DNA of 52,756 bases. It comes from a virus. Position 1 is the stretch's first letter. Every line of letters starts with the position of its first letter. The stretch lies in the IMG/VR virus record IMGVR_UViG_3300018063_000016, positions 1 through 52,756 of that record; one strand, 5' to 3'. The position numbers and the translations under genes were made by a program. Shown piece by piece: positions 29,601 to 42,296 of this stretch. The notes below the pieces were generated by a model. That model searched no databases and was not told the DNA's origin. It was given only the letters and a program-made list of their open reading frames with translations.

Positions 29601-32600
29601 ATGTTCGCTGACCTGATCCCCGGCGACGGCGAGCAGCCGTCCGGCATGTTCGACGACCTGATCCCTGGCGCGAAGGCCAAACCCGCGCCGAGCTCGGGCA
29701 TGTTCGACGACCTCGTGCCGGCCGCGGCCGAGCCGGGTTTCGTCCCGACCATCAAGCGCACCGGCGGGCAGATGCTCACCGGGGTCGCGCGCGCGATCGA
29801 CGACATCACCGGGCCGAACGTCGTCACCGAGAAGATCCGCGACACCGGGCAGGGGATCGTCGACCGCAATCCCGCCGGCATCACGAGTCTCGGCGACGTG
29901 GTCGAAAAGCCGTGGCTGACGGTCAAGGAGTCGGTCGGGCAGATGGTCCCGCAGATCGCTGCCGGCGTTCCCTCGCGCATGGCCGGCGCTGCACTGGGCG
30001 CCAAGATCGGCGGCCAGGCCGCGGGCGGGCGCGGTGCACTGATCGGCGGCGCGATCGGCGGGCTCGCCCCGATCTTCGTGCAGGAGTACGGCGGCATCCG
30101 CGACGAGCAGATCGAGGGCGGCCAGGAGTCGATCCCGCGCGCGCTCGGCGGCGCCGTCGCGGCCACCGCGCTCGAGCGCCTCGGTCCGGAAGGCCGGATC
30201 ATCTTCAAGGGACTGAACCCGGTAGCGCGCACCGGCAAGGAGATTGCCGCGCAGGCCGGGCGCGACGTGCTCGTCGAGGGCGCCACCGAAGGGGCGCAGT
30301 CGGTCATCGAGCAAGTCAGCGCGTTCAAGGACCCGCTGGACCCCGCCAGCCTCGAGGAGACGGCGCTGTCGTCGATCATGGGCGGCGTCGGCGGGGGTGT
30401 CGTGGGCGGTGCGCACGCCGCGCTCAGCTCCGCGCTGGCGCCGGCCGACGTTTCACGGGGAACGTCGGACACGCCGCCACCCGCCGCACCCGCCGCACCG
30501 GTGCCACCCGTCGAGCCCGTTGCGCCCCCCGGGGATTCAAGTTCACCAAGTTCACAACGTTCACCGGGCGATCCGCTGCGCGACCAGGCGCTGCCCCCGG
30601 CCGGGCCGCTGTCCAAGGCGGTCAACATCGGCATCGAGGGCGAGGCGCAGCAGGCCGACACCGGAGCGCCCACCCCCGCGCCGATTAGCGGGGCTATGGC
30701 GGGCGTGCCGCCGGCGCCGGTACCTGCACAGGGCGAGGGCGACGATCGTGGCAAGGCGGCCGACGTAGCCCCGCCGGCACCCGTTTTCGTGCCCCCGCAA
30801 ACCCTGCCGCCGGCGTCCATCGATCCCGACCTCGCGCTCGACCGCATGCGCCGCACCAACGCGGCGTACGAGGAGATCGTCAAGGAGCGCGATCAAGCGC
30901 AACCGCCGCCGCCCCCGCCCGGTCCCCAGGTCGCCGATGTACTCGACCCGACCGGTAAACCTTTCCGAACCCCGCTGCAGGCGCGGCGCGCGGGCGCGAA
31001 ACAGGAGTTCCCCGACGAGTGGGCCATCGCCCAGGTCGACGGCGGGTACGTGCTGCGCGCGCGCGGCGTCGACAAGGGAGTGGGCGATGTTGCTGGTGTG
31101 CCTGCAGGAGCTGGTGCAGTACGAGGCGATGACGGAGGACGAGGCGATGGTGCTCGACCACTTCGCGAGGCTCCCCAGGACCTCGCCGCAGCGCCGGCGC
31201 TGCCCGCTGGAGTTGCTGGTGAAGTTCCAGCAGTGTTGGAAGCTGGCGCAGATGGACGAGTTGCTGATGACCCGGCACTGAGCGCGCCGCCGGCGCCCGC
31301 TACGATCGACCCCGCTGCCGCCCTGGTTAGTCCCGTTTCAACCCCGCAGGGGCCACAAACGGATTTGCTGGGCCAGGACGGCAGCAACCCGCCGCCGTCA
31401 GGCCCGATCACGCGCGCCGTGGCGGCGCTGCCTGCGACCCCTGCGACCATCGCAGGTGCGACCATCGCACCCCCTGCGACCATCGCGCCCACGGTGGACG
31501 AACGTACACCGACGCCGGCGTACGACTTCGACACCACCTTCCCGACGCCGCAATTCGAGGAGTTGGCGCGCGTCGGCCGCCTGTCGGTCTTCGAGGGCAT
31601 CGACGACATAGACATGCCCGGCGCCCTGGCCGAGTGGCATCAGGATGTCGCGCAGACCATCGGCCACGGCCAGAACACCGCCCGGGCCGACCTCGACCTG
31701 GCCGACGCCGGCGCCGACGCCACCGGCAAGAAGCTGACCCCCAAGCAGATCAAGGGGCTGCGCGAGTCCGCGCGCCAGTCGATCGACATCAACCGCGGCG
31801 AGCTCGACGACTACGCCGGCGAGTTCGGGCTCGACGCGGCCGACGCGTTCACGCGCTACGTCGCCCCCGAAATCGACGCGCTCGAGCAGCGCGCCGCGCC
31901 GGCGGTCACGCTCGACGCCAACGCGCACCAGGCCGCGGCATCGCCCACCAACGGCAAGCCCGAGCCGACCCGCGGGCAGATCGAGGCCGGAAACGCGGAG
32001 TTGGGGCACGACAACACGACGTTCCCGGGGCTCGACCTGTCATTCGAGAACCCGGCCGGCTCGGTGCGCGAGGACAAGGCCAACGTTCCGCCGAAGTGGC
32101 GGACCGTCATGGAGCATCACTATGGCTTCGTGAAAGGCAGCGTCGGAGCCGACAAGGACCACGTCGATGTGTTCGCGAAACCCGGTACCCCGGAGGGACA
32201 CGCGGGCCCTGTTTTCGTCGTCGATCAACAGCACCCCGATGGGGGGTTCGACGAAGCGAAAGTGATGCTAGGCTTCAACGACGAAGCCGAGGCGCGCACC
32301 GCCTACCTGTCGAACTACGAGCCGGGCTGGCAGGGGCTTCAGTCGATCACGCCGATGGCGTTTGACGCGTTCAAGCAGTGGGTGTTCGACAAGAAGGCAA
32401 CGCGCAAGCCCGCAGCTCAGTGGAGCGGCAATGGCAGGGAAGCCCCGAACGGAACGTCACGGTCTGAGCAAGACGCCGATGTACCGTCTTTGGCAGAACG
32501 TGAAGGATCGTTGCCTCAACCCGCGCAACCCGTACTTCCACAACTACGGGGGCCGGGGAGTGCAGCTTTGCCCGGAGTGGCGGGACAGCTTTCTGGCGTT

Positions 32601-35600
32601 CCAGAAGGCAGTCGGTCCTCGACCAAGTCCACGACATACGTTGGACCGCAGGGAGAACGACGGCCACTATCAGCCGGGCAACGTGCGGTGGGCGACAAGG
32701 AAGGAACAAGCGCACAACATGCGCAAGAACCGACTGCTGACGTTCCAAGGAAGGACGCAGACACTGACGGCCTGGTCGGAGGAACTGCGCCTGCCGACCG
32801 CGACGATCTACAACCGGCTGCAGCGCAAGGGGCTGAGCGTGGAGAAAGCGCTCAGCCTGCCGCGGGGCAAGTACACCTACAGGCATCGACAACCAAAGTT
32901 CGCCCCGGCGGCAAGCGCACCCTAGCCGATCGCCGCGCCGAGGCCGCAGATCAAGCGAACGCGGAAATACAAGCAGTCAGCGCGCAGACTGCACAGTCTG
33001 CCGGCACAGCGCTTGACGCGCAGCGCGCCGCCCAGGTTGCCCCAAGTTCCGCCCAGGTTGCCCCAAGTGGCCCCATCCAGCAGGTACCGAACGAGCCGGG
33101 CGTCGGCTACGTGCTGCCGTCGTTCGTTACCGCGCAGCAGACCGGCGGCAAGCGCACCCTGCAGGACCGTCGCGACGAAGTGAAGGCCGCGCAGACCCTG
33201 CCCGCACCATCGGGCGGCCTGTTCGCCGAGTGGAACGGCCAGCGCCACGCCGTCGAGTCGATCGAGGACGCGCAGCGCAAGTGGGATGCGTTCCGGCTCG
33301 AGGCAGTCAAGCAGGGCGCTGGCGCCAGCGCTGTCGGCGATGGCGTGCGCGTGGTCGACGCGCAGGGCAAGCACGTCGCGAACATCTCCTACAACGGGCG
33401 CGCATGGACCCCCGAGGGGAAGCCGATCGAGGCACCGAATACAGGAATTCATGAAGTCACTTCCACAAAACCGGAAGTCCCCGATGCCGCGAACGAGGGT
33501 GCGAGCACTGTTGCCGCAACTCCCCCAACGGAACAAACTCCAACACCAGAGGCCCCCGCAAATGATCCCGCCGCTGCAATCCCTGCGCCTGCGCTCGATA
33601 AGCCGCTGGCTGACGGACGTGTACCCGAAGGAGTACGCGAGCTCGACCCAGTCCGAGGCGCTGCAAGCCCGCGCGACGAGCCTGGACGAGCAGATGATCG
33701 AAACCTTCGAGGAAGCGGACAGCGCGCTGATGCATCGCCTGATGCGGGCGAACAAGTGGGGGACGGAGGAAGGGCTGCAGACGTACAACACGGATCGGAT
33801 GGTCCTGTGGCAGCAGGTGTGCAGCGACTACCTGCCGACACCAAGCGAGGACGAGACTTCCGAGCCACCCCCGCCGACCTCGAGCGAAGCGGAAGCTGGT
33901 ACGACACCGCCCGACGCAACGTCGACCTGATCGACCTCGCGCGCAAGATCGACGCCGAGAAGCGCCCGGCCACGCCGGCCGAGCAGCGCGAGCTCGCCAA
34001 GTACGTGGGCTTTGGCGCCGGCGAGATCCGCAACAAGCTGTTCCCGATCCCCACCGAGTACGACCGCCAGCGCGAGCCGCAGCGCCTGGTTTGGCCCTCG
34101 CGCGTGTACGACGAGAACTGGCGCGCGCTGGCCGAGCGCATCGACGCGCTGCCGCGCGAGTGGCAGGAAACCGTCCTGCAATCGACGCAGTACGCGCACT
34201 ACACCAGCGGCAACATCGTCGCGTCCATCTGGAGCGGCGTGCAGCGCCTGGGCTTCACCGGCGGCAAGGTGTTCGAGCCCGGGCACGGCATCGGCTCGTT
34301 CGCGATGCTGATGCCCGACGCGCTGCACAAGGGCAGCAAGTACACCGGCATCGAGTTCGACGGGCCGACCGCGCTCATCAGCCGGCTGCTGTCGCCGCAG
34401 CAGAACATGCTGCACGACGACTTCACCAAGCGCCGTGTGCCCAAGGACTACTTCGACATCGCCATCGGCAACCCGCCGTTTGCGAAAACGAAGATCGTCG
34501 CCGACCCCGAGTACGCGAAGCTCAACCTGTCGCTGCACGACTACTTCTTCGCCAAGGCCATCGACCGCGTGCGTCCGGGCGGGCTGCTCGTGTTCGTCAC
34601 CAGCCACTACACGCTCGACAAGCAGACCGACAAGGCCCGCAAGTACCTCGCCGAGCGTGCCGATCTGCTCGGCGCGATCCGCCTGCCGCAGACCGCCTTC
34701 AGCGACAACGCCGGCACCAAGGTCGTGACCGACGTGATCTTCCTGCGCAAGCGCGCACCCGGGGAGGCAAGCGCGGGCCCCGCGTGGCAGGGCGTGACGA
34801 AGATCGACACCAAGGACGGCCCGGTGGGCGTCAACGAGTACTTCGCCGCGCATCCCGAGATGGTGCTCGGGCAGCAGCGCCTGTCGGGCCACCGCGACGA
34901 CCGCGACCGCTACATCAGCGGGCTGCGCAGCGACGGCGAGTACACGGTCGTCTCGTACGACGACAGCGCCGCCGAGCTCGACGCGAAGTTCGCCAAGGCC
35001 GTCGAGCAACTGCCCGCCAACGCCTACTCGCCGCTGCAGCAAGACAGCGCCACTGTGAAGCGCGAGACCGCGCGCATCGACTTCGACCCGAAGGTCAAGC
35101 GCGAGGGGGTCGTGTACCTGGCCGACGACGGCACGCTGATGCGCGTCAAGGACGGCACCGGCAAGGCGCTGGCCGACGAAGTGAAGCTGTCCGACAAGGA
35201 CGCGCAGTGGTTCAAGGGCTATGTGGGCATCCGCGAGCTCGTGCAGCAGGCGCGCGCCGCGCAGTTCGTCGACGCCGACTGGGAAGGCGCGCTGAAGAAG
35301 CTGAACAAGGCCTACGACGCGTTCCGCAAGGCGCACGGGCCGCTGCTCGACTTTCGCGTGCAGGTCCGCAAGTCCACCGACGACGAGGGCAACGTCGTCG
35401 AAACCGCGACCCGCGTCTACAAGAATCGCCGGCTGTTCCGCGAGGACTACGACGCGGCCGTCGTGACCTCGCTCGAAACCGAGACCGAGGCCGGCGACAT
35501 CGTCAAGGCGACGTTCCTGAAGGAGCGCACGATCGGCAAGCCGGTGACGCGCGACGTGAAGACCATCGGCGACGCGCTGGCGGTCTCGCTGGACGAAACC

Positions 35601-38600
35601 GGCAAGCTCGACCTCGACGACATCGGGCAGCGCCTGAACCTCACCCGCGACGACACCATCGAGGCGCTCGGCAACCAGGTCTACCGCACCCCGCAGGGGC
35701 AGTGGCAGCTCGCCGACGAGTACCTGTCGGGCAACGTGGTCGAAAAGCTCGCCGAAGCGATGGACGCTGCGGCCGCCGACCCCGCGCTCGAGCGCAACGT
35801 CGAGGCCCTGAAAGCGGTGCAGCCCGACAAGCTCGGCCCGTCGCAGATCACGGTCAAGCTCGGCACGACTTGGGTGCCCGCCAAGCACGTCGACGTGTTC
35901 GCCAAGGTGCTCGAAGCCGGGGACGTCACCTTCGACCACAAGACCGAAACCTGGCAGGTTGAGGGCTCCACGTCGCGCTGGAAGGGCGGCACGGCTTCCG
36001 AGTACGGCACTGCGCTGCGCTCGCCGTCGTGGATTCTCGAAGCGGTGCTCAACAGCCGCGTCATCAAGGTCGAAATCCTCGACAGCGACAGGAAGATCGA
36101 CCGCGAGCGCACCGAGAAGGCCACCACCGCGGCCAACGAAGTGGCGCGCAAGATGCGCGAGAAGTTCAAGTCGTGGGTGTGGACCGACACCGACCGCGCC
36201 GTCGAGCTCGTCGAGCTCTACAACGAGCAGTTCAACAACATCGCGCCGCGCGCCTTCGACGGCTCGCACCTGACGCTGCCCGGCGTGTCGCTGCGCTACA
36301 AGCTGCACCCGCACCAGCTGCGCGCCATCTGGCGGCAGATCCAGACCGGCAACGCCTACCTCGCGCACGCGGTGGGCGCCGGCAAGACACTGGAGATGAT
36401 CGCCGGCGGCATGGAGCAAAAGCGCCTCGGGCTGATCCGCAAGCCGATGTACGTGGTGCCCAACCACATGCTCGAGCAGTTCGCCAACGAGTTCATGGAC
36501 GCGTACCCGCTGGCCAACGTGATGGTCGCCGACGACGAGAACTTCTCGAAGGAACGGCGCAAGGCGTTCGTCGCCGCGGCCACGCTCAACGCACCCGACG
36601 CGATCGTCATCACGCACAGCGCATTCGAGCGCATCGGCGTGAAGGAAGAAAGCGTCAAGCCGATCCGCGACGCGATCGTCGGCGACCTGCACGCCGCGCT
36701 GCACGACACCGGCAAGGACGAGCGCGTGAAGCGCCAGCGCCTGGAGCAGCAGATCGAGCAGACCAAGCAGCGCTTCGACAAGATCGTGGGCGCTGGCACC
36801 AAGGACTCGACGACGCACTTCGAGGACATGGGCGTCGACTTCGTCTACGTCGACGAGGCGCACACGTTCCGCAAGCTCGACTTCACGACCAACCAGCAGA
36901 TCAAGGGCATCGACCCCACCGGGTCGCGCCGCGCGCTGGACCTGTACGTGAAGACACGGTTGCTCGAAGCCCGGCGCCCGGGCCGCTCGATGGCGTTCGC
37001 CTCGGGGACGGCGGTCACCAACACGATGGGCGAGCTCTACACGGTGATGCGCTTTTTCGCGCAGGCCGAGCTCGAGCGCTCGGGCATCTCGACCTTCGAC
37101 GCGTGGAGCCGGCAGTTCGCCGAGTCGGTGACGGCGCTCGAAGCCAACGCGGCCGGCGTCTACGAGCCGGTCACGCGCTTCGCGAAGTTCGTCAACATCC
37201 CCGAGCTGATGAGCCGGGTGCGCATGTTCATGGACGTGCTCAACTCGGAGCACCTGGGCGCGCTCGTCGAGCGCCCCGACCTCGAGGGCGGCAAGCCGAA
37301 CCTCGTGGTGGTGCCGGCCACCCTCGCGCTGCAGCGCTACATGAGAACGGTGCTCGAGCCGCGCGTCGCCGCGTCGCGCGCGTTCAGGCAGCGCCCGGGG
37401 CACCCCAACCCCGACCCGATGATCGCCATCATCAGCGACGGCCGCTTCGCGTCGCTCGACCCGCGGTTCTTTGGCGCCGAAGTCAAGGCGGACACGCCGA
37501 CCAAGCTGACCGAGATGGGCGATGCCGTGGCCGCCGAGTACAAGGCGACCGCCGGCAACTCCTATCAGGACGTCGACGGGCGCGACGAGCCGGTCAAGGG
37601 CTCGACGCAGATGGTGTTCTACAACCTCGGGTTCGGCCAGGCGAGCCAGACCAACCGCGGCTTCAACGCGCGCACCGCGTTCACCAAACGCCTCGTCGAG
37701 AAGGGCATCAAGCGCGAGCACATCACGTGGTTCGACGACGCCGACTCGGACGCCAAGAAGGAAGCGGTGTTCAAGGCGATGCGCGCCGGTCAGATCCGCG
37801 TGCTGATCGGCTCGGCCAAGAAGATGGGCACCGGCGTCAACGTGCAGAAGCGCCTGTCGATGCTGCACTACTTCGACGCGCCCTGGTACCCGGCCGACAT
37901 CGAGCAGCCGCACGGCCGCATCCTGCGCCAGGGCAACCAGAACCCGGTCGTGCGCATCAATTGGTACACGACCAAGGGCTCGTACGACTCGACCATGTGG
38001 GACATGGTCGCGCGCAAGCAGCGCTTCATCGATCAGGCGTTTGCCGGCGACAAGACGCTGCGCACGATGGAGGACCTGAGCGAGGCGTCGCTGTACGAGC
38101 AGGCCGCCGCACTCGCCTCGGGCGACCCGCGCGCCATCCAGCTCGCCGGGCTGAAGCAGGACGTGGAACGCCTGGAGCGCTTGCAGGCCGCGCACGCGAG
38201 CGAGCAGATCAGCGTGAAGTGGGCGGTACAGACCGAGCAGTCGCACGTCGCCTCGCACACGGCCGAGGAAAAGAAGCTCGCCGCGGCGTTCAAGGCGATC
38301 GGCGAGCGCTACGTGTCGTGGGACGGTGGCAAGGTCGGCTCGGTGCACTACGCCAAGCACGGCGAGTTCGGCGAAGCCCTCAAGCGGGCCTTCAACCGCG
38401 TCGCCCTCGAGCGCACCGGCGACGACAGCAAGGCGTGGACGCAGCTCGGCAGCATCGAGGGCATGCCGATCAAGATGCGCCCGTACATGAACAACAAGGA
38501 CAAGCCCGAGGGCTTCGTCGTCTACCTCGACCTCGGGCCGCTGAGCGAGCACATCTTCAGCTCGGACGGCCAACTGCCGCCGGACACCAACACCGTCGCC

Positions 38601-41600
38601 CTCGCGCAAAACCTGTTCCGCCCGCTCAATGCGATCGAGGGCAAATTGGCGCAGGCGCGGGCCGGCATCACGCGCGCGGACGCCGAGCTCGTGCGGCTCA
38701 ACAAGAAGCTCGGCGCCCCCTTCGAGTACACGCAGGAGCTCGTCGAGAAGTACGCCGATCTCAAGCGGCTCGAGGACTCGCTGAAGGACGACGGCGACAC
38801 GGCGAAGAAGGCGGCCGCGGGCGGCGTGCGCGAAAGCGAGGCGATCGAGAAGTGGGCGCGCGAAACGGGCGCGATCACGCCGCCGTTCCGCCGCGACGAC
38901 GAGGACGCCGGGGCCGGGCTCCCGGCCGACGTGCTGCGCAAGCACGTGCGTGCGATAGCAGCACAGTGGGCCAACGCCCCGCGCGTGTACGTCGTGGGCG
39001 GGCTCAACGACGCGATGGTCCCGCAGGCCGTGCGCGACGAGGACAAGCGCCAGCGCGAGGGCAAGGCCAAGGGCGACCCGCAGGCGTTCCAGTTCGGCGG
39101 CGCCGTGTACCTCGTGGCCCCGCAGATCGCGAACACCGACCAGGCCACGCGCGCGCTGCTGCACGAAGTGCTCGGTCACGCCGGGCTGCGCGGCACGTTC
39201 GGCAAGGACTTCGCAGTACTGCTCGACGCTATTGCGAAAATGCGAAAGGCCGACCTCGAGGCCGCAGCGCAGCATTACGGACTCGACCTTGCCAACGAGG
39301 CCGACCGGCGCATCGCTGCCGAGGAAGTGCTCGCCAAGATGGCCGAGACGCAGCCTACGCTCGGGTGGGTGCGCAAGGCGATCGCCGCCATCCGCTCCTG
39401 GCTGCGCAGCGCGGGCTTCAAGCTCGAGCTCACCGACGACGAGATTGTTCGCGAGCTGATCCTGCCGGCGCGTGCGTTCATCGAGCGCGGTACGCAGCGC
39501 CCCGACGCCACCGACACCCCGGCATTCAGCCGCAGCGGCGAGTTCCTCGACACGATGCGCCAGGCCGCCACCAAGCGCGGGCTGTCCAACCTCATCGCCG
39601 ACCTGTTCAACAAGCAGCCCGGCACCTTCAATTGGTGGCATCGGTCGGTGGGAACGCAGTTCCACAAGGCACGCGTGAATGCGGAGTTCCGCCCGGTGTA
39701 CGAGGGCGCGCAGGACTTCATGCACGACACGTCCGCGTTCGCCCAGGACGCGGCCGAGTACGCACCGAGCCTGCTCCCGCAGCTCAAGCAGTTCAGCGAC
39801 ATCTGGCGCCCGATCGCGCTGTCGGCCGCCGACGCCAAGGCGCTCGCGCCGGCGGTGTTCACCGGCACGCTGACCGACACCATCTACGGCGCCGGCGAGC
39901 TGGCCAGCCGCTTCGGGTTGAACGCCAAGCAGATCGGCCAGTACGAGCAGTTCCGCGCCGCGACCGATCGCTCGCTCGACACGCTCGTCGCGAGCGAAGT
40001 CGCGCGCTACCTCGCGGCCGACTCGAGCATCCCGCGCGCCTTCAAGGACATGGTGTCTGACGGCGACGTGGGGCGCTTCAAGGGGCTCGTGACGCTGTAC
40101 CTACAGAACAAGCTCGCCGAGGCCGACGCCGAGCTCGCGCGCGTGCGCCTGGCCAACCGGCGCGAGCTGGCGGCACTGCACGCGCGCCACCGCGAGGAGC
40201 GCGCCGCGGTGCGCGCCGGCGGCATGCTGTCGATCGAGCAGCGCCTCGAGGACGAGCTCGACGCCATGAAGGCGCAGCACGAGCAGGACCTCGGGCAAGC
40301 GCAGGCCGCGCGCGACAAGGCCGAGACGGTGCGCGCCGCGGTGGCCACCAAGTACGAGAAGGTCGACAAGCTGAAACGCGAGGGCTACGCGCCCCTGATG
40401 CGCTTCGGCAAGTACGCGGTGCACGTGACCGAGACGAACGCGGACGGCGAGGAGGAGACGATCCACTTCTCCCTGCACGAAAGCCAGCGCGAGGCCAACG
40501 CCCTGGCGCGCACGCGCCGCGAGCGGCGCACCCCCCGCGAGCACGTCTACCAGAACGAGATGCCGCAGGAGACGTACAAGCTGTTCAACGGGCTCAACCC
40601 GGAGACCGTCGCGCTGTTCGCCGAGCTGTCGGGCATGGAGCAGACCGACGCCATGCAGGAGTACTTGAAGCTCGCGATCGCCAACCGCTCGGCGCTCAAG
40701 CGCCTGATCCACCGCAAGGGCACGCCGGGCTACTCCGAGGACGCGAGCCGCGTGCTGGCCGCGTTCGTGACGTCCAACGCGCGGCAGTCCTCGCTGAACC
40801 TGCACATGCACGGGCTCGACGCGGCGATCGCCGACATGGAAAAGCGCCGCGTCACCGGCGGCGTCATCGACGAGGCGATCAAGCTGCGCGACTACATCAA
40901 GCACCCGCAGGAGGAGGCGCGCCACGTGCGCTCGCTGCTGTTCGTGCAGTACCTGGGCGGCTCGGTCGCGTCGGCGCTCGTGAACATGACGCAGCCGCTG
41001 ACCATGACGTACCCGTACCTCGCGCAGTGGGGCGGCGCGGTGAAGGCCGCGGCGCGCGTTATGCAGGCTACGAAGCAATCCCTGCATAGGCAGACCGGCG
41101 CACTGGGCGACGCACTGCACCGCGCCGAGCGCGACGGCGTCATCCAGCCGCAGGAAATCCACCAGCTGCAGGCCGAGGCAACGCGCGGGCTCGGCAGCAA
41201 CCAGGCCATACGCCGCGTGCTGTTCGCGTGGGGGAGCTTGTTCTCGCTGGCCGAGCAGTTCAACCGCCGCTCGACGTTCATCGCCGCGTGGAACACCGCC
41301 ACCGCCGAGGGCATCGCCAACCCGTTCGACTTCGCCATCGAGGCCGTCGAGCAGACGCAGGGCGTCTACAACAAGGGCAACCGCCCCAACTGGGCGCGCG
41401 GCGCGGTGGGCGCAACGATCTTCACCTTCAAGCAGTTCAGCATCAGCTACGTGGAGTTCCTCAAGCGCCTTCCGCGCAAGCAGCAGATGCTCGCGCTCGG
41501 GGTGCTGATGCTGGCCGCCGGCGTACAGGGCCTGCCCGGCGCCGACGACCTCGACGACCTGCTCGATACGCTGTGGCAGGCGCTCGGCTACGACACCAAC

Positions 41601-42296
41601 ACCAAGCTGGCCAAGCAGCGTTTCCTGACCGAAGTGTTCGGCGCTGGCGGGGCGGACTTCATCCTGCACGGCTTCAGCGCGCTTCCGGGCTTCCCGCTCG
41701 ACGTGAGCGCGCGCATGGGACTGGGCAACCTGATCCCCGGTACCAGCCTGCTGCTCAAGTCGAACATCCGCAAGCAGGACGAAGTACTCGAAGTACTCGG
41801 GCCCGCCGGCGGCATGGCGCGCGACGTGGCGCGGGGCATCAGCGACGGCACCCCGAGCAAGTTCCTGCCCACCGCGTTCCGCAACATGGGCAAGTCGGCC
41901 GACATGATCGACACCGGCTGGTACCGCGACGACCAGGGGCGCAAGGTGCGGCCCACCGACGAGACGGACGCCTTCGTCAAGTTCCTGGGCTTCCAGCCCG
42001 CGCACGTGGCGCGCGAGTCGCGCATGCTGCACCAGGCCGACCAGCAGAAGAACCTCGCCAAGGTCACCGAGGACGAGATTGCCGACAAGTGGGCGCGCGG
42101 GGTGGCCGAGAAGGACGCCGACACGGTGACCGAGGCGCGCAAGCAACTCGCCCAGTGGAACCGCGACAACCCGGGCACGCCCATCCGCATCTCGCCGCGC
42201 CAGATCCGCGGCCGGGTGCAGGACATGAACCGCACGCGTGAGCAAAGGTTCCTGCGCTCTACACCCAAGGAGTTGCGCGGCACAATCCTGCAGTGA
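29601..42296 (+). CDS. Giant DarB-like polyvalent protein: methylase, helicase, zincin
   Basis: A continuous 4231-residue frame. FDDLIP-type repeats lie at 1-7, 16-22 and 34-40. A Gly/Ala-rich hydrophobic region covers about 125-190. A pyrophosphatase-like polyvalent domain lies at about 816-935 (HYGFVKGSVGADKDHVDVF). The N6-adenine methylase has motif I FEPGHGIGSF at 1558 and GNPPF at 1623. The SF2 helicase has VGAGKT near 2258, VDEAH at 2417 and HGRILRQGNQNP at 2771. HEVLGH at 3188 is zincin-like, and PLMRFG at 3598 is the PLxRFG motif. A hydrophobic stretch lies near 3961-3975. Such proteins travel in virions and protect ejected DNA. Residues 496-560, 944-1108 and 1321-1443 overlie nested ORFs. 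Confidence 0.85.
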   Translation: MFADLIPGDGEQPSGMFDDLIPGAKAKPAPSSGMFDDLVPAAAEPGFVPTIKRTGGQMLTGVARAIDDITGPNVVTEKIRDTGQGIVDRNPAGITSLGDVVEKPWLTVKESVGQMVPQIAAGVPSRMAGAALGAKIGGQAAGGRGALIGGAIGGLAPIFVQEYGGIRDEQIEGGQESIPRALGGAVAATALERLGPEGRIIFKGLNPVARTGKEIAAQAGRDVLVEGATEGAQSVIEQVSAFKDPLDPASLEETALSSIMGGVGGGVVGGAHAALSSALAPADVSRGTSDTPPPAAPAAPVPPVEPVAPPGDSSSPSSQRSPGDPLRDQALPPAGPLSKAVNIGIEGEAQQADTGAPTPAPISGAMAGVPPAPVPAQGEGDDRGKAADVAPPAPVFVPPQTLPPASIDPDLALDRMRRTNAAYEEIVKERDQAQPPPPPPGPQVADVLDPTGKPFRTPLQARRAGAKQEFPDEWAIAQVDGGYVLRARGVDKGVGDVAGVPAGAGAVRGDDGGRGDGARPLREAPQDLAAAPALPAGVAGEVPAVLEAGADGRVADDPALSAPPAPATIDPAAALVSPVSTPQGPQTDLLGQDGSNPPPSGPITRAVAALPATPATIAGATIAPPATIAPTVDERTPTPAYDFDTTFPTPQFEELARVGRLSVFEGIDDIDMPGALAEWHQDVAQTIGHGQNTARADLDLADAGADATGKKLTPKQIKGLRESARQSIDINRGELDDYAGEFGLDAADAFTRYVAPEIDALEQRAAPAVTLDANAHQAAASPTNGKPEPTRGQIEAGNAELGHDNTTFPGLDLSFENPAGSVREDKANVPPKWRTVMEHHYGFVKGSVGADKDHVDVFAKPGTPEGHAGPVFVVDQQHPDGGFDEAKVMLGFNDEAEARTAYLSNYEPGWQGLQSITPMAFDAFKQWVFDKKATRKPAAQWSGNGREAPNGTSRSEQDADVPSLAEREGSLPQPAQPVLPQLRGPGSAALPGVAGQLSGVPEGSRSSTKSTTYVGPQGERRPLSAGQRAVGDKEGTSAQHAQEPTADVPRKDADTDGLVGGTAPADRDDLQPAAAQGAERGESAQPAAGQVHLQASTTKVRPGGKRTLADRRAEAADQANAEIQAVSAQTAQSAGTALDAQRAAQVAPSSAQVAPSGPIQQVPNEPGVGYVLPSFVTAQQTGGKRTLQDRRDEVKAAQTLPAPSGGLFAEWNGQRHAVESIEDAQRKWDAFRLEAVKQGAGASAVGDGVRVVDAQGKHVANISYNGRAWTPEGKPIEAPNTGIHEVTSTKPEVPDAANEGASTVAATPPTEQTPTPEAPANDPAAAIPAPALDKPLADGRVPEGVRELDPVRGAASPRDEPGRADDRNLRGSGQRADASPDAGEQVGDGGRAADVQHGSDGPVAAGVQRLPADTKRGRDFRATPADLERSGSWYDTARRNVDLIDLARKIDAEKRPATPAEQRELAKYVGFGAGEIRNKLFPIPTEYDRQREPQRLVWPSRVYDENWRALAERIDALPREWQETVLQSTQYAHYTSGNIVASIWSGVQRLGFTGGKVFEPGHGIGSFAMLMPDALHKGSKYTGIEFDGPTALISRLLSPQQNMLHDDFTKRRVPKDYFDIAIGNPPFAKTKIVADPEYAKLNLSLHDYFFAKAIDRVRPGGLLVFVTSHYTLDKQTDKARKYLAERADLLGAIRLPQTAFSDNAGTKVVTDVIFLRKRAPGEASAGPAWQGVTKIDTKDGPVGVNEYFAAHPEMVLGQQRLSGHRDDRDRYISGLRSDGEYTVVSYDDSAAELDAKFAKAVEQLPANAYSPLQQDSATVKRETARIDFDPKVKREGVVYLADDGTLMRVKDGTGKALADEVKLSDKDAQWFKGYVGIRELVQQARAAQFVDADWEGALKKLNKAYDAFRKAHGPLLDFRVQVRKSTDDEGNVVETATRVYKNRRLFREDYDAAVVTSLETETEAGDIVKATFLKERTIGKPVTRDVKTIGDALAVSLDETGKLDLDDIGQRLNLTRDDTIEALGNQVYRTPQGQWQLADEYLSGNVVEKLAEAMDAAAADPALERNVEALKAVQPDKLGPSQITVKLGTTWVPAKHVDVFAKVLEAGDVTFDHKTETWQVEGSTSRWKGGTASEYGTALRSPSWILEAVLNSRVIKVEILDSDRKIDRERTEKATTAANEVARKMREKFKSWVWTDTDRAVELVELYNEQFNNIAPRAFDGSHLTLPGVSLRYKLHPHQLRAIWRQIQTGNAYLAHAVGAGKTLEMIAGGMEQKRLGLIRKPMYVVPNHMLEQFANEFMDAYPLANVMVADDENFSKERRKAFVAAATLNAPDAIVITHSAFERIGVKEESVKPIRDAIVGDLHAALHDTGKDERVKRQRLEQQIEQTKQRFDKIVGAGTKDSTTHFEDMGVDFVYVDEAHTFRKLDFTTNQQIKGIDPTGSRRALDLYVKTRLLEARRPGRSMAFASGTAVTNTMGELYTVMRFFAQAELERSGISTFDAWSRQFAESVTALEANAAGVYEPVTRFAKFVNIPELMSRVRMFMDVLNSEHLGALVERPDLEGGKPNLVVVPATLALQRYMRTVLEPRVAASRAFRQRPGHPNPDPMIAIISDGRFASLDPRFFGAEVKADTPTKLTEMGDAVAAEYKATAGNSYQDVDGRDEPVKGSTQMVFYNLGFGQASQTNRGFNARTAFTKRLVEKGIKREHITWFDDADSDAKKEAVFKAMRAGQIRVLIGSAKKMGTGVNVQKRLSMLHYFDAPWYPADIEQPHGRILRQGNQNPVVRINWYTTKGSYDSTMWDMVARKQRFIDQAFAGDKTLRTMEDLSEASLYEQAAALASGDPRAIQLAGLKQDVERLERLQAAHASEQISVKWAVQTEQSHVASHTAEEKKLAAAFKAIGERYVSWDGGKVGSVHYAKHGEFGEALKRAFNRVALERTGDDSKAWTQLGSIEGMPIKMRPYMNNKDKPEGFVVYLDLGPLSEHIFSSDGQLPPDTNTVALAQNLFRPLNAIEGKLAQARAGITRADAELVRLNKKLGAPFEYTQELVEKYADLKRLEDSLKDDGDTAKKAAAGGVRESEAIEKWARETGAITPPFRRDDEDAGAGLPADVLRKHVRAIAAQWANAPRVYVVGGLNDAMVPQAVRDEDKRQREGKAKGDPQAFQFGGAVYLVAPQIANTDQATRALLHEVLGHAGLRGTFGKDFAVLLDAIAKMRKADLEAAAQHYGLDLANEADRRIAAEEVLAKMAETQPTLGWVRKAIAAIRSWLRSAGFKLELTDDEIVRELILPARAFIERGTQRPDATDTPAFSRSGEFLDTMRQAATKRGLSNLIADLFNKQPGTFNWWHRSVGTQFHKARVNAEFRPVYEGAQDFMHDTSAFAQDAAEYAPSLLPQLKQFSDIWRPIALSAADAKALAPAVFTGTLTDTIYGAGELASRFGLNAKQIGQYEQFRAATDRSLDTLVASEVARYLAADSSIPRAFKDMVSDGDVGRFKGLVTLYLQNKLAEADAELARVRLANRRELAALHARHREERAAVRAGGMLSIEQRLEDELDAMKAQHEQDLGQAQAARDKAETVRAAVATKYEKVDKLKREGYAPLMRFGKYAVHVTETNADGEEETIHFSLHESQREANALARTRRERRTPREHVYQNEMPQETYKLFNGLNPETVALFAELSGMEQTDAMQEYLKLAIANRSALKRLIHRKGTPGYSEDASRVLAAFVTSNARQSSLNLHMHGLDAAIADMEKRRVTGGVIDEAIKLRDYIKHPQEEARHVRSLLFVQYLGGSVASALVNMTQPLTMTYPYLAQWGGAVKAAARVMQATKQSLHRQTGALGDALHRAERDGVIQPQEIHQLQAEATRGLGSNQAIRRVLFAWGSLFSLAEQFNRRSTFIAAWNTATAEGIANPFDFAIEAVEQTQGVYNKGNRPNWARGAVGATIFTFKQFSISYVEFLKRLPRKQQMLALGVLMLAAGVQGLPGADDLDDLLDTLWQALGYDTNTKLAKQRFLTEVFGAGGADFILHGFSALPGFPLDVSARMGLGNLIPGTSLLLKSNIRKQDEVLEVLGPAGGMARDVARGISDGTPSKFLPTAFRNMGKSADMIDTGWYRDDQGRKVRPTDETDAFVKFLGFQPAHVARESRMLHQADQQKNLAKVTEDEIADKWARGVAEKDADTVTEARKQLAQWNRDNPGTPIRISPRQIRGRVQDMNRTREQRFLRSTPKELRGTILQ
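31087..31281 (+). CDS. Nested ORF 1 inside the giant gene (64 aa)
   Basis: A 64-codon gene entirely inside the giant gene in the +1 frame. AAGGGAG ends six bases before its ATG. Of its 64 codons, 63 end in G or C, whereas the giant frame has many A/T-ending codons here. The protein is ordinary and helical (VCLQELVQYEAMTEDEAMVL, LLVKFQQCWKLAQMDELLMT). The giant frame here encodes only Ala, Asp, Glu, Gly, Leu, Pro, Gln, Arg and Val, a sign of overprinting. Function is unknown. Expression could come from the long late transcript by internal initiation. Confidence 0.7.
   Translation: MLLVCLQELVQYEAMTEDEAMVLDHFARLPRTSPQRRRCPLELLVKFQQCWKLAQMDELLMTRH
32431..32925 (+). CDS. Nested HNH homing-type endonuclease (164 aa)
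   Basis: A complete HNH endonuclease read in the +1 frame within the giant gene. TGGAG precedes the ATG by five bases. The nuclease core at residues 18-100 has YRLWQNVKDRCLNPRN, YGGRGVQLCPEW, HTLDRRENDGHYQPGN, VRWATRKEQ and HNMRKNRLLTF. The C-terminus (TQTLTAWSEELRLPTATIYN) is a NUMOD-like helix-turn-helix. The same order occurs in the HNH gene behind portal. Its TAG at 32923-32925 touches an 18-bp direct repeat. The giant ORF is open throughout, so its protein carries about 165 extra residues here. The gene is intact, hence probably active or recently so. Confidence 0.85.
   Translation: MAGKPRTERHGLSKTPMYRLWQNVKDRCLNPRNPYFHNYGGRGVQLCPEWRDSFLAFQKAVGPRPSPRHTLDRRENDGHYQPGNVRWATRKEQAHNMRKNRLLTFQGRTQTLTAWSEELRLPTATIYNRLQRKGLSVEKALSLPRGKYTYRHRQPKFAPAASAP
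32906..33160 (+). repeat. 18-bp direct repeat pair encoding GGKRTL motif
   Basis: CGGCGGCAAGCGCACCCT occurs at 32906-32923 and again at 33143-33160. In the giant frame each copy encodes GGKRTL, followed by ADRRAE or QDRRDE, a motif found repeatedly in polyvalent phage proteins. The first copy ends on the nested HNH stop codon. A separate 21-base tandem repeat (GCCCAGGTTGCCCCAAGT at 33030-33047 and 33051-33068) lies between the copies. Confidence 0.7.
33562..33930 (+). CDS. Nested ORF 2 inside the giant gene (122 aa)
   Basis: A 122-codon ORF in the +1 frame of the giant gene. AGAGG lies nine bases before the ATG. Up to about residue 95 nearly all codons end in G or C and the protein reads naturally (LRLRSISRWLTDVYPKEYAS, SLDEQMIETFEEADSALMHR, MRANKWGTEEGLQTYNTDRM, VLWQQVCSDYLPTPSEDE). 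Over the same bases the giant frame is an Arg/Gly/Asp-rich, low-complexity stretch with many A/T-ending codons. The final 25 residues are weak and probably lie where the giant frame resumes selection. Function unknown; the helical, aromatic composition suggests a compact small protein. Confidence 0.65.
   Translation: MIPPLQSLRLRSISRWLTDVYPKEYASSTQSEALQARATSLDEQMIETFEEADSALMHRLMRANKWGTEEGLQTYNTDRMVLWQQVCSDYLPTPSEDETSEPPPPTSSEAEAGTTPPDATST

Follow-up and report, generated by a model that had tools for sequence, protein, structure and literature searches.

How can an HNH endonuclease gene lie within another gene, out of frame with it, without making that gene unreadable? The question is raised by a stretch of viral DNA of 52,756 nucleotides (IMG/VR virus record IMGVR_UViG_3300018063_000016, positions 1 to 52,756; hereafter the window), with a G+C content (GC) of 68%, in which an open reading frame (ORF) for an HNH endonuclease lies within the gene for a giant polyvalent protein. 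The common view is that a homing gene spares the gene it invades only by settling between genes or by riding in an intron or intein. We propose, as the probable explanation, that a mobile HNH gene settles splice-free in the linkers of long phage proteins and has become adapted to keep the host frame open, with both frames presumably translated and the endonuclease presumably active in homing. The nested arrangement occurs in ten genes, always in one relative frame; stop codons in the host frame are avoided, wobble bases are conserved within the nested clade, and the HNH gene has moved between host genes. The elements of the locus are:

29601..42296, plus strand: host gene, giant polyvalent (DarB-like) protein of 4231 amino acids (single ORF, Pfam, PHROG, DNA relatives)
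31977..32384, plus strand: InPase domain PF18823, host residues 793-928, ending about 12 codons ahead of the insert (Pfam; alignment with the insert-free relatives L002, L004, L019 and L040)
32421..32892, plus strand: inserted segment, approximate (left edge after host TRKPAAQ, right edge where HNH similarity ends)
32422..32425, plus strand: Shine-Dalgarno-like GGAG, 5 nucleotides ahead of the HNH ATG (sequence)
32431..32925, plus strand: HNH endonuclease gene of 164 amino acids, in the +1 frame with respect to the host gene that it overlaps (phrog_3377; AlphaFold2)
33198..33430, plus strand: host domain resuming past the insert and linker (same-frame homology to L019)

The HNH ORF runs from an ATG at 32431 to a TAG at 32923-32925, entirely inside the host ORF. 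Host codons fall at 29601+3k; the HNH gene starts at host codon position 2, and its wobble base opens each host codon, a relation that we write as host = HNH+2. Across the insert there are no stops in the host frame and five in the other sense frame. The encoded protein matches phrog_3377 over residues 8-148 (E 1.6e-49, 169 bits) and five further PHROGs annotated as HNH, restriction-endonuclease or unknown families, is recognised by neither Pfam (E<=0.01) nor NCBIfam, and has relatives in 981 phage records. Its AlphaFold2 model has a mean predicted local distance difference test score (pLDDT) of 87.7; a fold search of the PDB with this model returned weak matches, with an HNH nickase at the top (E 0.82) and PacI at rank 4, and the HNH profile finds I-HmuI (1u3e) weakly (E 0.59). 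By its sequence the ORF encodes a complete endonuclease of the phrog_3377 type, with presumed activity.

The host protein carries the InPase domain (E 1.8e-41) and, further downstream of the insert in the same ORF, an Eco57I-type methylase and more weakly matching SNF2/Helicase_C domains, besides a PHROG match to DarB-like antirestriction proteins. The best annotated DNA relatives of the window are the Burkholderia phages BcepMigl, DC1, CSP3 and BcepIL02, which place it as a Bcep22/Lessievirus-like phage. The original prediction, made from the letters of the window, had described a complete HNH ORF inside the giant ORF in another frame without a host stop, and this description is borne out by the stop count, the phrog_3377 match and the flanking domains being in frame. 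The coordinates it gave, 32431-32925, are those of the ORF and not quite those of the inserted piece. Host TRKPAAQ, ending at 32420, aligns with TKKPFA(A)Q of the insert-free relatives L002, L004 and L040, and the last ~10 HNH codons (FAPAASAP) are host sequence read in another frame; the inserted piece is thus ~32421-32892, and the C-terminus of the endonuclease is borrowed from its host. The comparison with insert-free relatives that the prediction had called for shows the same flanking module staying in frame: in L019 the domain matching the window from ~33198 onward comes right after InPase and a short linker, and the insert-bearing and insert-free arrangements both keep the flanking host domains in frame.

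The arrangement is not peculiar to the window. Six more nested HNH genes occur in unrelated phage contigs and three in intein-like inserts of DNA polymerases, ten in all, with a contig present as two records counted once. The nearest IMG/VR relatives of the window HNH proved to be nested as well: L123 (=L041) after InPase; L124 after InPase in a methylase/helicase polyprotein; L125 (=L042) in a different gene without InPase; L128 in a polyprotein with SLT and LPD3 domains; and L109 (=L175), a gene of 266 codons at 47% GC, upstream of InPase. L245 was added through a profile search with host-frame peptides, a search that favours this frame. All ten have host = HNH+2, and among the surveyed loci none is nested in the other relative frame. 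In 369 genomes belonging to the same class as G001, none of five HNH matches is nested, and the host-frame peptide of the insert gave no match in phage records.

The constancy of the frame has a simple basis in the genetic code. With host = HNH+2, a host stop (TAA, TAG or TGA) can arise only from an HNH codon NNT standing before AA, AG or GA, and NNT to NNC is always synonymous, so that host stops are removable without altering the endonuclease. The other sense frame can hold stops, ATG|A for example, that are not always removable; even the best synonymous shuffles there left one to three stops in four GC-rich nested genes and 21 in L109, while the fifth GC-rich gene, L124, reached none. We suggest that host = HNH+2 is favoured because every host stop requires a wobble T whose change to C leaves the HNH protein as it was. 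The counts in the nested genes fit such removal: among pyrimidine-ending codons, T is found in 0/113 of those preceding AA, AG or GA and in 100/312 elsewhere in the seven genes (P 3.7e-16), and in 0/36 versus 59/152 in the polymerase trio, compared with 734/1406 versus 1547/2760 in 63 non-nested relatives. When each gene was shuffled synonymously, the probability of an open host frame was 0.008-0.009 for the window, 0.19 for L123, 0.02-0.03 for L124 and L125, 0.05 for L128 and 0.015 for L245; shuffles of L109 averaged 7.7 stops and none of 5000 was open (P <0.0002), and the trio gave 0.004, 0.026 and 0.0016. In the window the open host frame is more than chance, both by these shuffles and by the recurrence of the arrangement in six other contigs.

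A second signature lies in the wobble base itself. Where five genes of the nested clade encode identical amino acids, their third bases agree at 0.617 versus 0.510 expected, an excess of 0.107 (column bootstrap 95% 0.055-0.158) that stands at 0.12 when stop-risk codons are left out. Random quintets of free relatives rich in GC at third positions gave an excess of 0.011 (standard deviation 0.022, maximum 0.074 of 300), and free pairs at equal protein identity 0.003-0.016. The excess persists without stop-risk codons, which suggests that a constraint beyond stop avoidance acts on the wobble base, the first base of the host codon. The peptide read there in the host frame is predicted to be disordered: order-promoting residues make up 0.11-0.16 of the host-frame product versus 0.27-0.31 of the HNH frame, and the model of the host-frame insert (residues 160-322 of the modelled segment) is coil with nearly all pLDDT <50.

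The HNH gene has also been mobile. Six nested genes form one clade in the HNH tree (100/92), with L109 and the polymerase trio elsewhere, in a tree whose bootstrap is not fully settled and supports L109's own position weakly; this implies at least three nested states. By contrast, the InPase domains of HNH-bearing hosts do not form a clade (approximately unbiased test p 0.00026, at least four changes, with some long branches), and the disagreement between the two trees indicates that the HNH gene has moved. DNA similarity between L125 and the other nested loci is confined to the HNH gene. Presence and absence of the HNH gene among related hosts is seen at L128, whose close relatives lack it with the host frame preserved.

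Taken together, we posit that the HNH gene enters inter-domain linkers of long phage proteins with neither intron nor intein, and that the ribosome would read straight through the insert, the giant protein gaining a disordered linker of ~155 residues. The endonuclease would be a separate product of that mRNA, translated from an internal start in the +1 frame, which is plausible given the Shine-Dalgarno-like sequences before nested starts (GGAG in the window, AAAGGAG in L128, AGAGGAG in L123 and AAAGG in L125, thus at least four of seven). Its spread would presumably follow from cutting of insert-free alleles and copying in during repair. The original prediction had the host tolerate the insertion simply by translating it as a linker; the open frame and the predicted disorder support the linker, but more than passive tolerance is involved: through its choice among synonymous codons the HNH gene itself keeps stops out of the host frame.

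Several observations count against this proposal. The Shine-Dalgarno-like sequence is weak or absent in three of the seven nested genes (L124, L245 and L109), and the low pLDDT of the host-frame insert stems partly from a one-sequence alignment there. The count of 0/113 is not an independent test, because an open frame partly defined what was called nested; the fair tests are the per-gene synonymous shuffles (clade members P 0.009-0.19, L109 P <0.0002) and the wobble conservation, and the six clade members share ancestry, so the shuffle results are not all independent either. Finally, no near-identical insert-free allele of the window was found (a protein pattern search gave none, the best being 66-68% identical in amino acids, and megablast against phages gave none), and the window borders are for this reason only approximate.

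Among other explanations, the one that retains most force, though we consider it unlikely, is that polyvalent proteins exchange the HNH cassette by homologous recombination like any other in-frame module, the host-frame peptide being a selected linker and the HNH frame a decaying or inactive passenger. The relatives of L128 (~88-96% DNA identity) speak for it: where the HNH gene would be they have another in-frame module, with the host frame retained, so that presence and absence there is a module swap and not a clean empty site. The over-conservation of host-frame wobble positions points the same way. A decaying passenger is difficult to reconcile, however, with an HNH frame that is intact in all seven nested genes at 50-60% identity with core residues conserved, with codon positions 1-2 conserved above position 3, or with movement of the HNH gene into unrelated genes.

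It is less likely still that the host ORF stays open across the HNH gene only through GC-rich DNA, the two frames being functionally unlinked. At 68% GC the window does abound in long spurious ORFs, including a minus-strand ORF of 173 amino acids across the HNH site that we take as chance, and the single-gene shuffles for L123 and L128 are modest. Yet the domains flanking the insert on either side are homologous to those of relatives and share one frame, and 62 of the 63 non-nested relatives carry stops in the corresponding frame, among them six of the seven with 60-70% GC, although such stops fall from 14.6 per 100 codons at <40% GC to 2.3 at 60-70%. For L109 the explanation is refuted, as at 47% GC it has no host stops in its 266 codons against ~8 expected; and the excess wobble conservation is limited to the nested clade.

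A self-splicing group I or II intron that carries the HNH gene and is removed from the mRNA seems no more probable. Phage HNH homing genes do often lie in group I introns, as is well established and discussed in PMC11855218, and RNA of the window segment 32385-32960 has a somewhat more stable fold than its shuffled versions (z -2.56; -3.0 versus synonymous shuffles); the folding excess, however, is not common to all nested genes and occurs in a free HNH gene too. Rfam gave no intron match in 31000-34500 of the window at E<=1 and nothing at the gathering threshold in the six related nested loci, only ~10 nucleotides separate host sequence from the HNH start codon, and an intron would require neither an open host frame nor stop avoidance. 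Nor were intein block A (N-terminal Cys/Ser) or block G (C-terminal HN-C/S/T) seen in the host-frame sequences, read by eye. With InPase ending at ~32384 and the insert starting after 32420, there is no room for intein blocks A/B or an intron core, and the earlier view that no splicing signal is present holds after this search.

Intein-like inserts do come into the wider family through three polymerase genes:

L210 825-3704: Caulobacter phage RW DNA polymerase A gene with an intein-like insert and an out-of-frame HNH
L211 444-3743: Shewanella phage SFCi1 DNA polymerase A gene with an intein-like insert and an out-of-frame HNH
L212 768-3746: APSE-1 DNA polymerase A gene with an intein-like insert and an out-of-frame HNH

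They share with the window the HNH family, the relative frame and the open host frame, and in APSE-1 the two genes (P46 inside the P45 DNA polymerase, NC_000935) are annotated as overlapping coding sequences. They differ in that the HNH gene sits in an insert with intein-like motifs at both ends of the host frame (e.g. CLAKGTLVLT... TADHQVLT... HNCE), so that protein splicing could restore the host protein; the intein call rests on motifs read by eye, since Pfam intein domains gave no match in these inserts even at E<=10. That the window, too, holds an intein or its remnant with an out-of-frame endonuclease is very improbable despite this kinship, as splicing motifs are lacking at both the N- and the C-terminal side in the window and other nested hosts, ~12 codons separate InPase from the insert, and in the HNH tree the trio does not branch next to the nested clade.

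Splice-free, out-of-frame insertion of an HNH gene is already known. The ShiLan domain, described in 2025, is such an insertion with an open host frame in the methylase gp65 of mycobacteriophage ShiLan (PMC11855218), and a second announcement mentions another (PMC12613952). As in the window, the ShiLan HNH gene lies wholly inside a phage gene in another frame, with no host stops, no intron or intein and a disjunct distribution. It differs in being of an unrelated type with zinc fingers and without a significant tblastn match, and in the opposite relative frame, starting at host codon position 3; its host is a methylase with no Shine-Dalgarno sequence reported, whereas that of the window is a polyvalent protein with the SD-like GGAG. 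The departure from the usual sites of homing genes that was claimed for the window therefore stands, as no intron or intein was found, but it has this precedent. The available parts of the ShiLan paper (PMC11855218) do not analyse stop avoidance, wobble conservation or a frame rule. The open-access literature, preprints aside, yielded no account of HNH genes lodged in polyvalent proteins (the DarB-like, InPase and LPD3 group to which the nested genes' hosts belong) and no paper on a frame rule, wobble depletion or several nested origins; the rule of frame adaptation and the wider distribution were thus not found described.

More broadly, it seems about as likely as not that there is a general class of frame-adapted homing genes, in which selection would have purged wobble T's until the overlapping frame is permanently stop-free and yields a harmless disordered linker. 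Such genes could insert into the linkers of many different genes, always in one frame, and the rule would have arisen on three or more occasions, also within inteins. This would be another route for homing genes into genes, through the one relative frame in which all host stops are silently removable, and makes a testable rule with which hidden endonucleases missed by annotators might be found. The nested insertions would also account for part of the long disordered linkers that giant phage proteins contain, and offer a clean natural case of dual coding kept on a mobile gene.

Free-standing and intron-encoded phage HNHs (phrog_3377; I-HmuI type) belong to the same PHROG profile family as the window HNH. 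They differ from it in occupying a locus to themselves, in frequently carrying a zinc-finger-like extension at the N-terminus, and in having many +2-frame stops. A prophage-like region in a bacterial genome (G328; L205 1276-1932 and 2336-2995) holds a tandem pair of genes of this family with zinc-finger-like N-terminal extensions.

A short repeat of the host protein, GGKRTLxDRR, flanks the insert (host-frame sequence):

32907..32936, plus strand: first copy, GGKRTLADRR, containing the HNH stop codon 32923-32925
33144..33173, plus strand: second copy, GGKRTLQDRR

Elsewhere, at one site of a polyvalent gene, closely related phages exchange in-frame modules, an HNH cassette in L235 (5560-6330) versus a ParB-like module in L236-L239, which suggests a recombination hot spot.

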